DNA of 44,799 nt from a virus: the IMG/VR virus record IMGVR_UViG_3300047495_000021, positions 1-44,799 of that record; one strand, written 5' to 3'. The position numbers and the translations under genes are program-made. Below the pieces are notes generated by a model. It did not search any database. It saw nothing but the letters and a program-made list of their open reading frames with translations, and was not told where the DNA came from. The first letter of the stretch is position 1; the number at the start of each line of letters is the position of its first letter. Positions 1 to 44,799 of this stretch are shown here, one piece after another.

Positions 1-108
1 CCGTAGCCGTAGCCGCTGCTGCTGCCGCCGCCGCCGCCGTAGCCGCCGTTGCCGTAGCCGTAGCCGCTGCTGCTGCCGCCGCCGCCGCCGTAGCCGTAGC
101 CGTAGCTA
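1..108. repeat. Left-end GCC-phase hexanucleotide/trinucleotide repeat
   Basis: Almost pure triplet-phase repeat of GCC alternating with GTA, GCT, GCC and one GTT. A block of GCCGTA units, GCT triplets and a GCC run occurs twice (about 1-44 and 53-96). The same block, with one GCC fewer, lies at 44722-44763 in the same orientation, so the two window ends are direct repeats of each other. This is the pattern of an assembly broken inside a long tandem repeat, or of a terminally redundant molecule. Confidence 0.9.
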
Positions 109-125
109 TTTTTATTTGCAAGCAT
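1..125 (-). CDS. Gly/Tyr/Ser-rich repeat protein, N-terminal part (runs off the window start)
   Basis: An open frame starts at an ATG at 125-123 on the minus strand, inside the last codons of the leftward gene at 112-384 but in another reading frame. A weak GAG sits about 7 bases upstream. It begins MLANKNSYGYGYGGGGG and continues as Gly with Tyr, Ser and Asn to position 1 without a stop. The + strand is a GCC-phase repeat (GCC GTA, GCC GCT, GCC GCC), so alternate codons are Gly. The matching frame at the other window end stops at 44596. If the molecule is circular or concatemeric the two parts form one product of at least about 109 residues. Joining the given ends directly leaves the frame one base short, as expected if repeat units are missing. 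No function is known; it could also be non-coding repeat. Confidence 0.45.
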   Translation of the reverse strand, partial: MLANKNSYGYGYGGGGGSSSGYGYGNGGYGGGGGSSSGYGY

Positions 126-384
126 CGAAAGTCTCGCGCGCCTTTGCAGTTGTTGGAATGATTTCAATTGCTTCCATTAGCAATATGCTTTCAACAGCAA
201 TTGACATGCGCGAATTTTTTGCGTCAATGCCATCCGTGGCAACGGCTGACAAAGTGAACGCGCCTTCCCATCGCCAAAGACGCCGCGCATTGGTCAAAAC
301 AACTTCCTTGCCATCACGGCTGGCGAGCGTGCCGATATGCACGCCAGCGCTATAGGTGCGAATAACTACGTGTTTACCAATCAT
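112..384 (-). CDS. DUF6948-like small protein
   Basis: 90 residues from the ATG at 384, which has a strong GGGGAAAA ribosome site; the longer frame starting at 408 has none. The N-terminal core VIRTYSAGVHIGTL, then DGKEVVL, ARRLW and FTLSAVA, matches what I remember of DUF6948, a small family of phage and plasmid proteins of unknown role found mainly in Alphaproteobacteria. No membrane segment or signal is visible. It is the second gene of a leftward pair that faces away from the early region and may be expressed from the promoter above 618. Its 3' end overlaps the start of the Gly/Tyr-rich frame. Family assignment is from memory of the motif, not from a search. Confidence 0.75.
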   Translation of the reverse strand: MIGKHVVIRTYSAGVHIGTLASRDGKEVVLTNARRLWRWEGAFTLSAVATDGIDAKNSRMSIAVESILLMEAIEIIPTTAKARETFDACK

Positions 385-2873: not shown

Positions 2874-3289
2874 AGTTGTTTAACTTGTTTGGGATGCGGC
2901 GCAAGCAACCGGCAGAAAATCGGTTTGCCGATTTAGACCGGCATTTTGCAATAATTGAGTGCCGCGAATGTGGCGCAATTCAATGGGCAAAACCTGCGCA
3001 TAGCAATGCTTATATTCAGATTGTTGGGCGCTTTCCGCGCCCAGCCGTGCCGTATAGCAACCTGCGTGTGCCGATGCCTGCCGGTGTTGCCAGCCCCGCG
3101 CCAGAGCCGGTTAAGGCGCATGCCATGCTAGTTGAACGCGGAAGGCACCCAACATCGGTGCGGGTGCCCGTGGCGCTGTTGCAGCGGCTACGGCGGCATC
3201 ATGCCGACCGTGCTGCCTATGCCAGCATGGACGATTACGCGACGCATCGCGAGTTTGTGCATGCGCTGCACCTACTGTTGCCGTCTTAA
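2870..3289 (+). CDS. Hypothetical early protein (139 aa)
   Basis: 139 residues, MKLFNLFGMRRKQPAENRFA at the start. The ATG at 2870 has AGGGGG upstream. A CxxC pair (ECRECG, about 31-36) could be half of a metal site. A Pro-rich middle is followed by a helical C-terminus with VRVPVALLQRLRRHHADR, which reads like a ribbon-helix-helix or short DNA-binding helix. No family recognised. Confidence 0.6.
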   Translation: MKLFNLFGMRRKQPAENRFADLDRHFAIIECRECGAIQWAKPAHSNAYIQIVGRFPRPAVPYSNLRVPMPAGVASPAPEPVKAHAMLVERGRHPTSVRVPVALLQRLRRHHADRAAYASMDDYATHREFVHALHLLLPS

Positions 3290-40103: not shown

Positions 40104-40751
40104 TTACCGCCCCCAGGGCGGTGCAGCGTTGCCGCTAGGCTGTTGGCCCCAGGCTGGTGTAGGAGCGGCTTGCGCTGGCGCGGGCGGCTGTGTAGCCGTG
40201 CCACCCCATGATGCCGGGGTAACGGTAGCTTGCGGCGCTGGCTGGGCGGCAGGCGCACCCCAAGCAGGCGTTGGCGCAGGCGTTGGCGCAGGCGTTGCTT
40301 GCGGTGGCGGGGCAGCAGGTTGTGCGGGGCCGGTCGGCGCGGCTTGCCGCACGGGCGGTTGCCCGTGCATGTCGAATACAGCCGAAATTTCGGTGTATTT
40401 TTCATCGTTCTTTTGCGACGTAACAAGCACCACAAAAGGCTTGTTGAACAATTCCGCTGCGTTTTCACTTTCCAGAACATATTGCCCGGTTACATGGCAA
40501 AGCGATGAAAGTTGTTTGCTCGCAATTTCCGCTGCTTGCGGGTTTTCGTTCCACAAATTCAGTCTGTAGCCGCCTTCAAAATTCTTTGAAGGACCATCAA
40601 TCACGCGCAAAGTAAATTCCAGCATACCGCTTTGCGGCTTGTCTTTCACCGATTTACGGTGGCCCGCAATAATCACAACCGGATGTTTGCCGAGCGGCCA
40701 TGTAGCCGATCCGGTTGCAGGTTCAACTTGCCTTGCATCAAACCACGCCAT
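40104..40751 (-). CDS. DUF669-like single-stranded DNA-binding protein
   Basis: 215 residues: ATWPLGKHPVVIIAGHRKSV, GMLEFTLRVIDGPSKNFEGG, YRLNLWNENPQAAEIASKQL, the OB-fold-like core of DUF669 proteins, which act as phage SSB. From about 130 a long Pro/Ala/Gln/Thr-rich tail ends NAAPPWGR, in place of the acidic tip seen in bacterial SSB. Directly below the Sak4-like ATPase, a standard annealing-recombination pair. Confidence 0.75.
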   Translation of the reverse strand: MAWFDARQVEPATGSATWPLGKHPVVIIAGHRKSVKDKPQSGMLEFTLRVIDGPSKNFEGGYRLNLWNENPQAAEIASKQLSSLCHVTGQYVLESENAAELFNKPFVVLVTSQKNDEKYTEISAVFDMHGQPPVRQAAPTGPAQPAAPPPQATPAPTPAPTPAWGAPAAQPAPQATVTPASWGGTATQPPAPAQAAPTPAWGQQPSGNAAPPWGR

Positions 40752-41973: not shown

Positions 41974-42204
41974 ATGCTTTGGCAGTCTTTGAAAGTAGTC
42001 ACGCAAGCGATGCTACAAAATCGCACGCGTAATTTAACATACGCCAAGATCGCGGAAGAAGTCATGCAGTATTGCCCACAAGATCAGCAAATAACAGCGG
42101 CTTGGCTTGAACAGTTTGCAACAGACCGTATTAAAGCCCCGTCGGTTGATAAGGTGCAGGTTCTTTACGAATACTTGTCAAAGCAGCCGCTTATTTCTGC
42201 ATAA
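41974..42204 (+). CDS. Small helical protein, possible regulator (76 aa)
   Basis: 76 residues from the ATG at 41974 with GAGG six bases upstream; 41971 and 41962 are alternatives. LWQSLKVVTQAMLQNRTRNL, then TYAKIAEEVMQYC, ITAAWLEQFATDRIKAPSVD. Two or three helices with a TYAKIAEEV...ITAAWLEQF arrangement like a helix-turn-helix. It sits directly at the divergent promoter, so it may regulate replication genes. HTH call is by eye. Confidence 0.5.
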   Translation: MLWQSLKVVTQAMLQNRTRNLTYAKIAEEVMQYCPQDQQITAAWLEQFATDRIKAPSVDKVQVLYEYLSKQPLISA

Positions 42205-42235
42205 CTTGCACGCTGTAATAACTAAGGCGGCGTTT

Positions 42236-44590
42236 ATGGCCTTGTCAGATATTCCGCAAGAATTGCGGCAGTTAAATCAATGGATAAATTGGAAATACGA
42301 GGAAATTGATGGTAAACAGACTAAAATTCCCCTACGTTCTATTGATGGAAAAAAGGCCAGCGTCACCGATCCTAGGGATTGGACGGATTTCTTTTCAGCA
42401 AATGCTGCTATCCAATACTGCGCTGGCATCGGGTTCGTCTTTACCGCCGACGATCCCTATTGCGGTTTGGATTTCGACAACAAATCTAATGATGCGGCGG
42501 TTAATATCTATATACGCGAAACTGTGCAAAAAATCGCCAGTTACGCGGAAATCACGCCTAGCGGATTTGGCCTGCATTCTATTGTCAAAGCAAAATTACC
42601 TGGCAACGGTCGCAGGCGCGGCGCTTTGGAAATCTATGACACAAAACGTTTCTTCACCTTTACAGGAAACGTATATTTAAATGCGCCAATTGCCGAACGT
42701 CAATCCGAAGTTGTCGAATTGTGGCAATCAATCGGACCAGCCCAAACCGTTGAAACAATTGCTACGGGCAACGATGCGGAAATCTATACCGATGACGAAA
42801 TACTCGCCAAGGCCAAAGAGGCTGTTAATGGCGAGAAATTCGCAAGGCTATTTTCTGGCGATTGGGAAAGCGATTACGGCGACAAATCCCAATCGGAAGC
42901 GGATTTTGCGCTTATCAACATTCTGGCGTTTTATTCGCGGAATTTAACGCAAACAATTCGGATTTTTCGTGCAAGCGGTTTAGGCCAGCGCCAAAAGGCG
43001 CAACGCGGTAGCTATGTGAGTTTGATGGCGCGGCGCGCGTTTGATCGCATGCCCGCGACCGTTTCAACCGTGACCGGCAGTGGCCCGTGGTTTGATGCGC
43101 GAGTGATAGCCCCCTGGGCGCCATCACTCGCCCAGGGGGCCGCGCTAGGGGCAGCAATCGGCATTGCGCACACGCCAGCGCCCAAGGAAGCTAGCCTAAG
43201 CCTTCCCCCCGTGGCAAGCCTGCCGCCCATTCCTGGCCTTGTGGGCAAGCTTATGGCCCATTGCTGGCACAGAAGCACCTATCCCGTGGCGGAAGTCGCT
43301 ATTGCGTCCGCATTGGCTTCCATGGCGCTCCTAGCCGGGCGAACGTATCGGATCGGCAGCAATGGCCTAAGCCTGTATATTTTGGTTATGGCAAAAACTT
43401 CTATTGGTAAATCTTTTGCGTATCAAGCGCAACACGCATGGCAAAACGCGTTAATTCGGCGCTATCAAAATCCAACAGGCGGCGGTCAATATAAACAGCG
43501 TTGCGAATATCTTGAAGGAATGATTACTGGTAAAATTGGAAGTGCATCAGGCGTTGCGCAGCATGTTGTGCGGCATCCTAATTCGCTTTGTCAATATGAT
43601 GAATTTGTTAACAAAATGAAGGAAATTGCGCATCCTCGTGCAAATCCTAATGACTTAGCAATTCAAGGCGAATTATTATCGCTAACTGATAATTCGCAAC
43701 CCGGCGCGATCTATCGCGAAAAATCATATTCGCAACGCGGCGGTAAAGAGAAGTTGCCGCCGGTCATTTCGCCAGCCTTCACCCTACTTGGAACCGGCAC
43801 GCCAGAAGGTTTCTATAATGATCTTGGTAACGGCATGCTTGAAGGCGGGTTTTTGCCGCGTTTCATCATTATGGAATACGAAGGCACGCTGCCGGAAGAG
43901 AACGAAAATGTTGTGACTGAAATTGACAGCGGTATGCTTGACGAAATTGCGTTGCATTTTAATAGAGCGTTTGATCTTAACGCAGTAATTACTGGCGACA
44001 TTAATCAGATTATTAATGTTGAAGCTGATAAATTTGCATCCGTTAAATTAACAGAATGGAAACGTTTGTGTGAAACCGCAGTGCGGCACGCGCACGGTGA
44101 AGGGCAACCGACCGCCGGTTTATGGTCGCGCGCTATTCAACACGTCTATAAGATTGCCGCGCTAATTGCTATTGGGGTAAATCCCCACAAACCAGTAATT
44201 TTAAGTGAATACGTTTATTATGCTAGATTGATAGTTGAGCCGGGCATTCATCGCATTGTGGGGAAGCTACAAACTGGCGAAGTAGGGCAAGGCGATAGCC
44301 GGTGCGAAGCGGAAGTGCGCAATTATGTGCGGCGAGTTAGGTCACAAGGTCTAGGTTTTGTGGAAGCTTACCCTGGCTTTAGTCGCGAAATTGCGCAAAC
44401 GGCTTATTTACAGATTGGACCTATGAAATGGTTTGTCACTAAACGCGGTGCGTTTAAGTCGCATAAACTTGGCGAAAGCCGTGGCTTTGATGAAACTATT
44501 AACGCTATGATAACTGGTGGTGAATTTGAACGTAAAGATTTTGCCATAATTAACGGCAGAAAGGTTAAAGCCCTTCTGCCGTTATTTTAA
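42236..44590 (+). CDS. PrimPol-DUF3987 fusion (primase-helicase)
   Basis: 784 residues from the ATG at 42236 with AAGG. N-terminal AEP-type primase-polymerase like NrS-1: GLDFDN at 77-82 (Asp79, Asp81), SGFGLH at 109-114, EIYDTKRFFTFTGN at 132-145. Then the helical segment SEADFALINILAFYSRNL and FRASGLGQRQK, typical of the PrimPol C-terminal region. A Pro/Ala linker (about 285-335) leads to DUF3987 with Walker A AKTSIGKS at 386-393. Both parts are complete. It can make primers and probably unwind DNA at the origin, replacing separate primase and DnaB-type helicase. Confidence 0.85.
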   Translation: MALSDIPQELRQLNQWINWKYEEIDGKQTKIPLRSIDGKKASVTDPRDWTDFFSANAAIQYCAGIGFVFTADDPYCGLDFDNKSNDAAVNIYIRETVQKIASYAEITPSGFGLHSIVKAKLPGNGRRRGALEIYDTKRFFTFTGNVYLNAPIAERQSEVVELWQSIGPAQTVETIATGNDAEIYTDDEILAKAKEAVNGEKFARLFSGDWESDYGDKSQSEADFALINILAFYSRNLTQTIRIFRASGLGQRQKAQRGSYVSLMARRAFDRMPATVSTVTGSGPWFDARVIAPWAPSLAQGAALGAAIGIAHTPAPKEASLSLPPVASLPPIPGLVGKLMAHCWHRSTYPVAEVAIASALASMALLAGRTYRIGSNGLSLYILVMAKTSIGKSFAYQAQHAWQNALIRRYQNPTGGGQYKQRCEYLEGMITGKIGSASGVAQHVVRHPNSLCQYDEFVNKMKEIAHPRANPNDLAIQGELLSLTDNSQPGAIYREKSYSQRGGKEKLPPVISPAFTLLGTGTPEGFYNDLGNGMLEGGFLPRFIIMEYEGTLPEENENVVTEIDSGMLDEIALHFNRAFDLNAVITGDINQIINVEADKFASVKLTEWKRLCETAVRHAHGEGQPTAGLWSRAIQHVYKIAALIAIGVNPHKPVILSEYVYYARLIVEPGIHRIVGKLQTGEVGQGDSRCEAEVRNYVRRVRSQGLGFVEAYPGFSREIAQTAYLQIGPMKWFVTKRGAFKSHKLGESRGFDETINAMITGGEFERKDFAIINGRKVKALLPLF

Positions 44591-44595: not shown

Positions 44596-44799
44596 TTAGC
44601 CGTCGCCGTAGCCGCCGTAGCCGCCGTAGCCGCCGTAGCCGCTGCCTTCGCCGTAGCCGCTGCCGTAGCCGCTGCCGCTGCCGCTGCCGCTGCCGCCGCC
44701 GCTGCTGCTGCCGCCGCCGCCGTTGCCGTAGCCGTAGCCGCTGCTGCTGCCGCCGCCGCCGTAGCCGCTGCCGCTGCCGCTGCCGCTGCCGCTGCCGCT
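44596..44799 (-). CDS. Gly/Tyr/Ser-rich repeat protein, C-terminal part (runs off the window end)
   Basis: On the minus strand the frame is open from 44799 to a TAA at 44598-44596: 67 codons of Gly with Ser, Tyr and single Asn, Glu and Asp, ending GYGGYGGYGGYGDG. The repeat keeps a strict 3-base phase throughout, and non-Gly codons are nearly all NAC or AGC. The stop follows the repeat immediately. It is in the frame expected for the continuation of the ORF starting at 125 if one base (mod 3) is missing between the two ends. Selection on a protein, or simple triplet slippage, would both keep the phase. Confidence 0.45.
   Translation of the reverse strand, partial: SGSGSGSGSGSGYGGGGSSSGYGYGNGGGGSSSGGGSGSGSGSGYGSGYGEGSGYGGYGGYGGYGDG
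44599..44799. repeat. Right-end GCC-phase repeat
   Basis: GCC alternating with GTA, GCC, GCT, once each GTC, TTC and GTT. It contains subarrays: GCCGTAGCC repeats (44605-44639), GCCGCT repeats (from 44670, and again to the end), and a block shared with the left end (44711-44765). Confidence 0.9.

Follow-up and report, generated by a model that had tools for sequence, protein, structure and literature searches.

Gene content of the window

The window, that is the whole stretch of DNA analysed here, is a 44,799-bp IMG/VR virus record classed as linear. It comes from a tailed phage, whose plus strand encodes portal, capsid and tail proteins, with genes for a DNA polymerase, a helicase, a Cas4-type exonuclease, an SSB and Sak4 on the minus strand. 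No near DNA relative of the window was found among phages, and no match to Rfam. Five features at its two ends are used below:

Positions 1 to 125, minus strand: putative 5' part of a repeat gene (ATG at 125-123, leader MLANKNS, then the array), running off the contig end.
Positions 112 to 384, minus strand: DUF6948 gene (90 aa; PF22253, E = 4.5e-31), with an AlphaFold2 model of pLDDT 97.7 whose Foldseek and VIA matches are Sm/LSm proteins.
Positions 42107 to 44590, plus strand: DNA primase/polymerase gene (phrog_3022, DNA primase, E = 1.9e-140; NrS-1 pol-like HBD domain).
Positions 44551 to 44584, no strand assigned: 14-bp hairpin (RNA fold -24.8 kcal/mol, z = -5.3, 0 of 200 shuffles as stable).
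Positions 44596 to 44799, minus strand: putative 3' part of the repeat gene (array, then TAA at 44598-44596), whose frame joins that of the 5' part with one added base.

The primase gene is convergent with the repeat gene and flanks the right part of the array; it is context and lies outside the gene pair described below. When it was used to look for a contig spanning the junction, no relatives of this gene were found in IMG/VR. The hairpin lies just past the stop codon of the repeat gene, within the 3' end of the convergent primase gene, and is a probable terminator common to both. A 10-bp GTATATATAG tandem repeat (943-971) and a diverged inverted repeat (638-713 / 952-1029) precede the leftward operon of DUF6948 and possibly form its control region. 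A perfect repeat of GCAGGCGTTGGC (2.8 copies, 40264-40297) is found within an SSB-like gene (40104-40751).

A repeat gene at both contig ends

Read on the minus strand, positions 125 to 1 encode MLANKNSYGYGYGGGGGSSSGYGYGNGGYGGGGGSSSGYGY, i.e. 41 codons and two bases, open to base 1. At the other end, positions 44799 to 44596 encode 67 residues followed by the TAA at 44598-44596. Translation thus confirms the two open frames of the original prediction. The same prediction placed both contig ends within a single Gly/Tyr/Ser-rich gene of at least about 109 residues, which our results support, and proposed the loss of one base (modulo 3) at the junction, which is right. Joined directly, the ends break the frame; with two added bases a stop follows immediately; with one added base the frame is open from the ATG to the TAA over 109 residues.

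The left piece has a start without a stop, the right piece has a stop without a start, and the sole DUF6948 gene of the window adjoins the left piece. The two arrays are for this reason best read as one gene. In addition, a 46-nt exact stretch is common to both array parts, a length reached in 0 of 2000 shuffles permuting all codons and in 10 of 2000 shuffles keeping the Gly skeleton. This stretch alone would be moderate evidence that both arrays are one, the distribution of start, stop and DUF6948 being the stronger argument. Alternatively, the arrays could belong to different genes, the window being a linear fragment with similar repeats at its ends by chance: the ends have no exact terminal overlap, the record is classed as linear, and in locus L003 a single DUF6948 gene has two tandem Gly-rich repeat frames on its 3' side. 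This alternative is nonetheless very improbable given the lone start on the left and lone stop on the right, the single base that restores the frame, the 46 shared nucleotides and the frequency with which contigs break exactly here. From its sequence, the gene is almost certainly one, present as two halves.

The ATG of the repeat gene lies within the last codons of DUF6948, on the same strand, and the two genes overlap by 14 nt up to the DUF6948 stop. The original prediction had missed the adjacent DUF6948 gene, the Sm-like fold of its product and this overlap. With the same strand, a start overlapping the DUF6948 stop and a Gly-X array, the repeat gene of the window has the features of the second gene of the pairs described below, and we are highly confident that the window carries such a pair, the second gene being split.

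The DUF6948 gene and its predicted fold

The DUF6948 profile (PF22253) was matched with 107.3 bits, against a curated cut-off of 27. The AlphaFold2 model (125 sequences) shows a five-strand barrel and a C-terminal helix. When this model is compared with the PDB by Foldseek or by VIA-align, all of the top 50 matches are Sm/LSm proteins, among them 3BY7. The Foldseek E-values are modest, the best being 8.5e-4; the best VIA match has Z 8.7 (rmsd 1.8 over 62 aa), and Z scores of 8-9 come close to those of common small beta barrels. A BFVD search with the model also returned named Sm-like phage proteins, lower in the list. By sequence, the DUF6948 profile has no relative in the PDB. Nor is the protein an Hfq by sequence, as the Pfam scan gave DUF6948 only and there was no NCBIfam match. 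An Sm/LSm fold is consequently a structure-based prediction, with moderate scores that are consistent over all matches.

We aligned the contact residues by eye on the strands of the model. The canonical Sm contacts (Sm1 Asn, Sm2 Arg-Gly) are absent from DUF6948: among the 125 sequences, columns 27-28 are Glu/Val and columns 70-71 are mostly Thr/Glu. RNA binding in an Sm pore is therefore unsupported, and DUF6948 is better described as Sm-like in predicted fold than classed as a functional Sm protein. Invariance is instead seen at R9-T10, A13-G14, G18, R35, W39 and E74, which include parts of an RTYSAGV hairpin. No mention of DUF6948 was found in the literature searched.

Distribution of the gene pair

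The first six IMG/VR relatives all have a Gly-rich frame, mostly of Gly-X dipeptides, straight after DUF6948. An alignment search for DUF6948 retrieved 80 loci from IMG/VR and 61 from GTDB. Among the 108 distinct full-length DUF6948 loci that have 400 nt or more of downstream sequence, a Gly-X array directly follows DUF6948 in 103, while it was found in only 3 out of 103 when the 600 nt upstream were taken as a control. Three of the five exceptions (L101, L149 and L150) have short or degenerate Gly-rich stretches. For the reverse test, an exact DNA pattern for the array only, blind to DUF6948, gave 80 loci; DUF6948 was present upstream in 58 of the 64 arrays with at least 500 nt of upstream sequence. 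The pairing thus appears near-obligate in both directions.

The pair is found in finished phages (Chlorobiaceae CV-1-33, Pectobacterium Taid and its relatives, Vibrio IKEMa6-1 and Iodobacter PhiPLPE) and in a circular Manatee Spring podovirus. According to contig titles, hosts belong to Pseudomonadota, Clostridia, Bacteroidota, Chlorobi, Planctomycetes, Cyanobacteria and others, along with a few bins named as archaea; some of these bins may hold misplaced phage contigs. DUF6948 is rare in bacterial genomes, with a single match among 398 genomes of one phylum, in the Neisseria sicca genome that was already known to have it. Two Neisseria gonorrhoeae records (L138 and L275) have DUF6948 and an array in three places each; X is mostly Asn in these arrays, and the PLSDB table lists no gene there. 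The gonococcal PLSDB entries NZ_CP119142.1 and NZ_CP119140.1 are of chromosome size (2.17 Mb), yet listed as plasmids.

The original prediction considered a silk-like protein among phage early genes to be unusual. Such a protein is in fact what normally follows DUF6948 in phages and prophages across many bacterial phyla. The repeat gene is as such ordinary, since nearly all phages with DUF6948 have one; its interest lies in being part of a widespread and hypervariable pair, beside a predicted Sm-like fold. RecT/RecE-type recombination, SSB and replication initiation genes are frequent neighbours of the pair (families scanned with PHROGs only), and PADLOC gave no match. The repeat gene falls outside all curated families of the libraries searched; matches of arrays to Pfam TrAA12 were below the cut-off and were rejected as chance similarity of low complexity. 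The pair, although near-obligate and spread across phages of many bacterial phyla, is apparently undescribed in the literature and libraries searched.

Among 249 DUF6948 frames, none is fused to an array. Array-like and DUF6948-like stretches apparently stand in one PHROGs profile, phrog_18306, and no carrier was found in about 800 genomes. Fusions of arrays to other domains do occur. In Bacteroidota and one Clostridia element, a folded domain follows the array in the same protein, which fits the array as a tail or tether. These versions (L144, L145, L147, L276 and L291, from Bacteroidota and a Monoglobus element) have the Gly-X array N-terminal to a domain of about 150 residues (FIAR..SFAHG..WH..LTGSC). 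The model of this C-terminal domain has a pLDDT of 90 and no PDB match with E ≤ 0.001. Two further loci (L198 and L212) have arrays fused to a different C-terminal domain (SKEYWLATIDAFASKWP..), and no DUF6948 was found upstream in L198.

Contig ends at the array

Three contigs of the first six IMG/VR relatives likewise end within the Gly-rich frame. In the 80 IMG/VR loci, a contig end lies within 400 nt downstream of DUF6948 in 20 cases and upstream in 1 (about 1.7 expected per side). In GTDB, the corresponding numbers are 12 out of 57 loci downstream and 3 upstream (about 1.8 expected). Pooled, 32 of the 137 loci end just downstream vs. 4 of 137 upstream. As contigs end in the array far above expectation, the ends of the window are most likely an assembly break within one minus-strand gene. 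Such breaks alone are not proof of a circular genome. The array is nevertheless a recurrent break point, at which roughly one in four DUF6948 contigs ends, and it may account for the label of linear or incomplete on many phage genomes.

Composition and start of the repeat gene

The start of the repeat gene overlaps the DUF6948 stop, mostly by 13 nt (64 of 132 cases), and is an ATG in 120 of the 132. Translation of the two genes is probably coupled, given this usual overlap. More than one frame offset is used between DUF6948 and the repeat gene. ATG starts and varied relative frames argue that the repeat gene is initiated independently, probably with coupling, and against frameshifting; as a general mechanism, a programmed frameshift from DUF6948 was rejected, the offset being variable and the arrays having their own start codons.

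The 99 closed arrays have a median length of 66 residues, with Gly at 3248 of 3306 expected positions. The X residue is Ser (34.6%), Tyr (28.7%) or Asp (24.0%) in 87% of cases; other residues at X include Asn (3.2%), Phe (2.7%), Ala (1%) and Cys (0.5%). Aromatic residues make up at least 10% of X in all 99 arrays, and 92 arrays have no Lys or Arg. Tyr has Gly on both sides, as expected of [G/S]Y[G/S] low-complexity proteins that undergo phase separation. Acidic residues occupy X in a median of 24% of units and become slightly more frequent toward the C end; in several arrays they take up 4-8% of X. Acidity is not constant, because the array of the window itself has 2 acidic residues in 101.

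At Gly codons, nonsynonymous departures per site are 0.22 times the synonymous ones (4.6 times rarer), an approximate value owing to repeat duplication. The same dipeptides are written in differing codons across phages (GGCTATGGCGAT, GGCTACGGCGAC and GGGTACGGGGAC), with for instance GGCTAT/GGCGAT in L009 and GGGTCC in L006. The array is thus a genuine gene, selected for its composition and register. A microcin B17-like RiPP precursor is disfavoured, with Cys at 0.5% of X and no modification genes among the commonest neighbours (PHROGs only).

Variation of the array between related phages

In eight related Pectobacterium/Dickeya phages, the repeat proteins are 53-89 residues long, and in all 28 pairwise comparisons the array lengths differ by a multiple of 6 nt. 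Ymer and Amona have identical flanks (532 nt upstream, 450 nt downstream), yet their arrays differ in length (by 18 nt) and in unit order, 85 of the 125 24-mers of one array being missing from the other. Between Taid and Ymer, the length difference is 36 nt. Koroua and Ymer have the same downstream sequence but different upstream ones, which makes the array a mosaic junction as well. Except for Setonix, these phages are short-read assemblies (NextSeq, metaSPAdes; PMC11445585); their exact copy numbers may be wrong, and the unit content differs regardless. Similarly, in the Chlorobi pair L058/L009, DUF6948 is 96.7% and the downstream sequence 93% identical, and the arrays differ, with a 36-nt length difference.

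In these comparisons, the array changes fast by 6-base units, while Gly continues to alternate and X stays within a small alphabet (Ser/Tyr/Asp, with hardly any Lys/Arg). The original prediction pointed out an unbroken 3-base phase; the real unit in relatives is a 6-base Gly-X dipeptide. The variation in copy number that was anticipated between particles is seen here between near-identical isolates. A diversity-generating retroelement target, expected to be a variable region of fixed length changed only at template adenines, does not match the arrays, since those of near-identical phages vary in length, unit order and content.

Possible roles of the pair

We propose that DUF6948 may assemble into an Sm-like ring or another oligomer, which would bind phage RNA or ssDNA. 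With recombination, SSB and replication initiation genes as neighbours, ssDNA is as likely a substrate as RNA. The Gly-X protein would be the detached disordered tail of DUF6948, the two products interacting. Through Tyr stickers set apart by Ser/Gly spacers, with acidic residues scattered among them, this tail would draw the complexes together into a condensate; alternatively, it may tune nucleic-acid binding and release. It would act as the tails of two Hfq proteins do in cis: the Gly-rich one of Acinetobacter and, in E. coli, the acidic tip. Slippage and recombination could alter the array length freely, because only composition and register would matter. Counted against this mechanism were the lack of a DUF6948-array fusion, the missing canonical Sm contacts, the modest scores of the fold matches and the inconstant acidity of the arrays. 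An Sm-like core and a separately encoded disordered tail acting jointly on phage RNA or ssDNA is a plausible mechanism, to which we give somewhat less than an even chance; as a single compromise judgement, the explanation as a whole is about evenly poised between right and wrong. More generally, tailed phages and prophages might widely encode a two-gene RNP scaffold, in which the Sm-like DUF6948 would offer a new face to nucleic acid and a hypervariable Gly-Tyr/Ser/Asp chain would condense it in trans on phage RNA or ssDNA; the order of this chain would be free to vary fast, perhaps escaping host recognition. We consider this extension rather doubtful. If the Sm-like reading is true, the pair would provide a tractable phage system for the role of disordered Gly-rich tails on Sm/Hfq cores, split here into two genes.

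The Gly-X protein could also be a polyanion-like mimic or decoy of nucleic acid, freeing nucleic acid from DUF6948 or blocking a host nucleic-acid-binding protein. The acidic X residues, their mild rise at the C end and the near absence of basic residues are in favour of such a role, for which the E. coli Hfq tail is a precedent (PMC5606850). Acidity drops, however, to a few percent of X in several arrays and to two residues in the window, and Tyr and Ser are more constant than acidic residues. We regard a decoy as unlikely.

Less probable still is an independent, self-assembling material or structural protein (silk-like, with beta-sheets), merely travelling with DUF6948. In silk dipeptides, alternating Gly places all X side chains on one face of the strand. 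The strict Gly alternation of the arrays would do the same, and aromatic residues are kept in all of them. Against this, Ala, the main X residue of silk, is almost missing, the gene is mostly found among replication and recombination genes and not structural ones, and the pairing with DUF6948 is near-obligate both ways.

Finally, different arrays between identical flanks in near-identical phages, mosaics changing at the array and neighbouring recombination genes could indicate an element acting as DNA (a hot spot of recombination, or a site for replication or packaging) with an incidental reading frame, but the same protein written in different codons, the start codon overlapping the upstream stop, the constant strand orientation and the constrained Gly codons make this highly improbable.

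Comparison with known systems

Two Sm-like proteins resemble DUF6948 in their small Sm/LSm fold: 3BY7, from a marine metagenome and presumably linked to phages (VIA Z 7.5, 69 aa aligned), and the annotated Sm-like protein of Synechococcus phage S-CAM3 in BFVD (Foldseek E 6.2e-3). Identity with DUF6948 in the aligned parts is however low (13% and 8%, respectively).

With regard to the Gly-X protein, the arrays resemble silk-like Gly dipeptide repeats, having Gly at every second position in tandem units, but they are nearly without Ala and have Ser/Tyr/Asp instead. FUS-type low-complexity domains are disordered chains with [G/S]Y[G/S] motifs, in which Tyr stickers are spaced by Gly/Ser. The Gly-X protein also has Tyr between Gly/Ser, with no homology implied; it differs from these domains by its strict Gly-X alternation and by being encoded by a separate gene.

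By analogy, the closest precedent for the pair would be Hfq of Acinetobacter baumannii, in which a Gly-rich tail of GGFGGQ repeats and an acidic tip tune RNA binding, the repeat number being important (PMC11617691). In the E. coli protein, nucleic acid and the acidic tip of the tail compete on the Sm ring (PMC5606850). Like the A. baumannii protein, the pair would combine an Sm-fold core (predicted here) with a Gly-rich, aromatic-containing, repeat-built disordered tail. In contrast to the A. baumannii protein, the tail would be a separate, overlapping Gly-X gene, and the core is not Hfq by sequence and is without the canonical Sm contacts.
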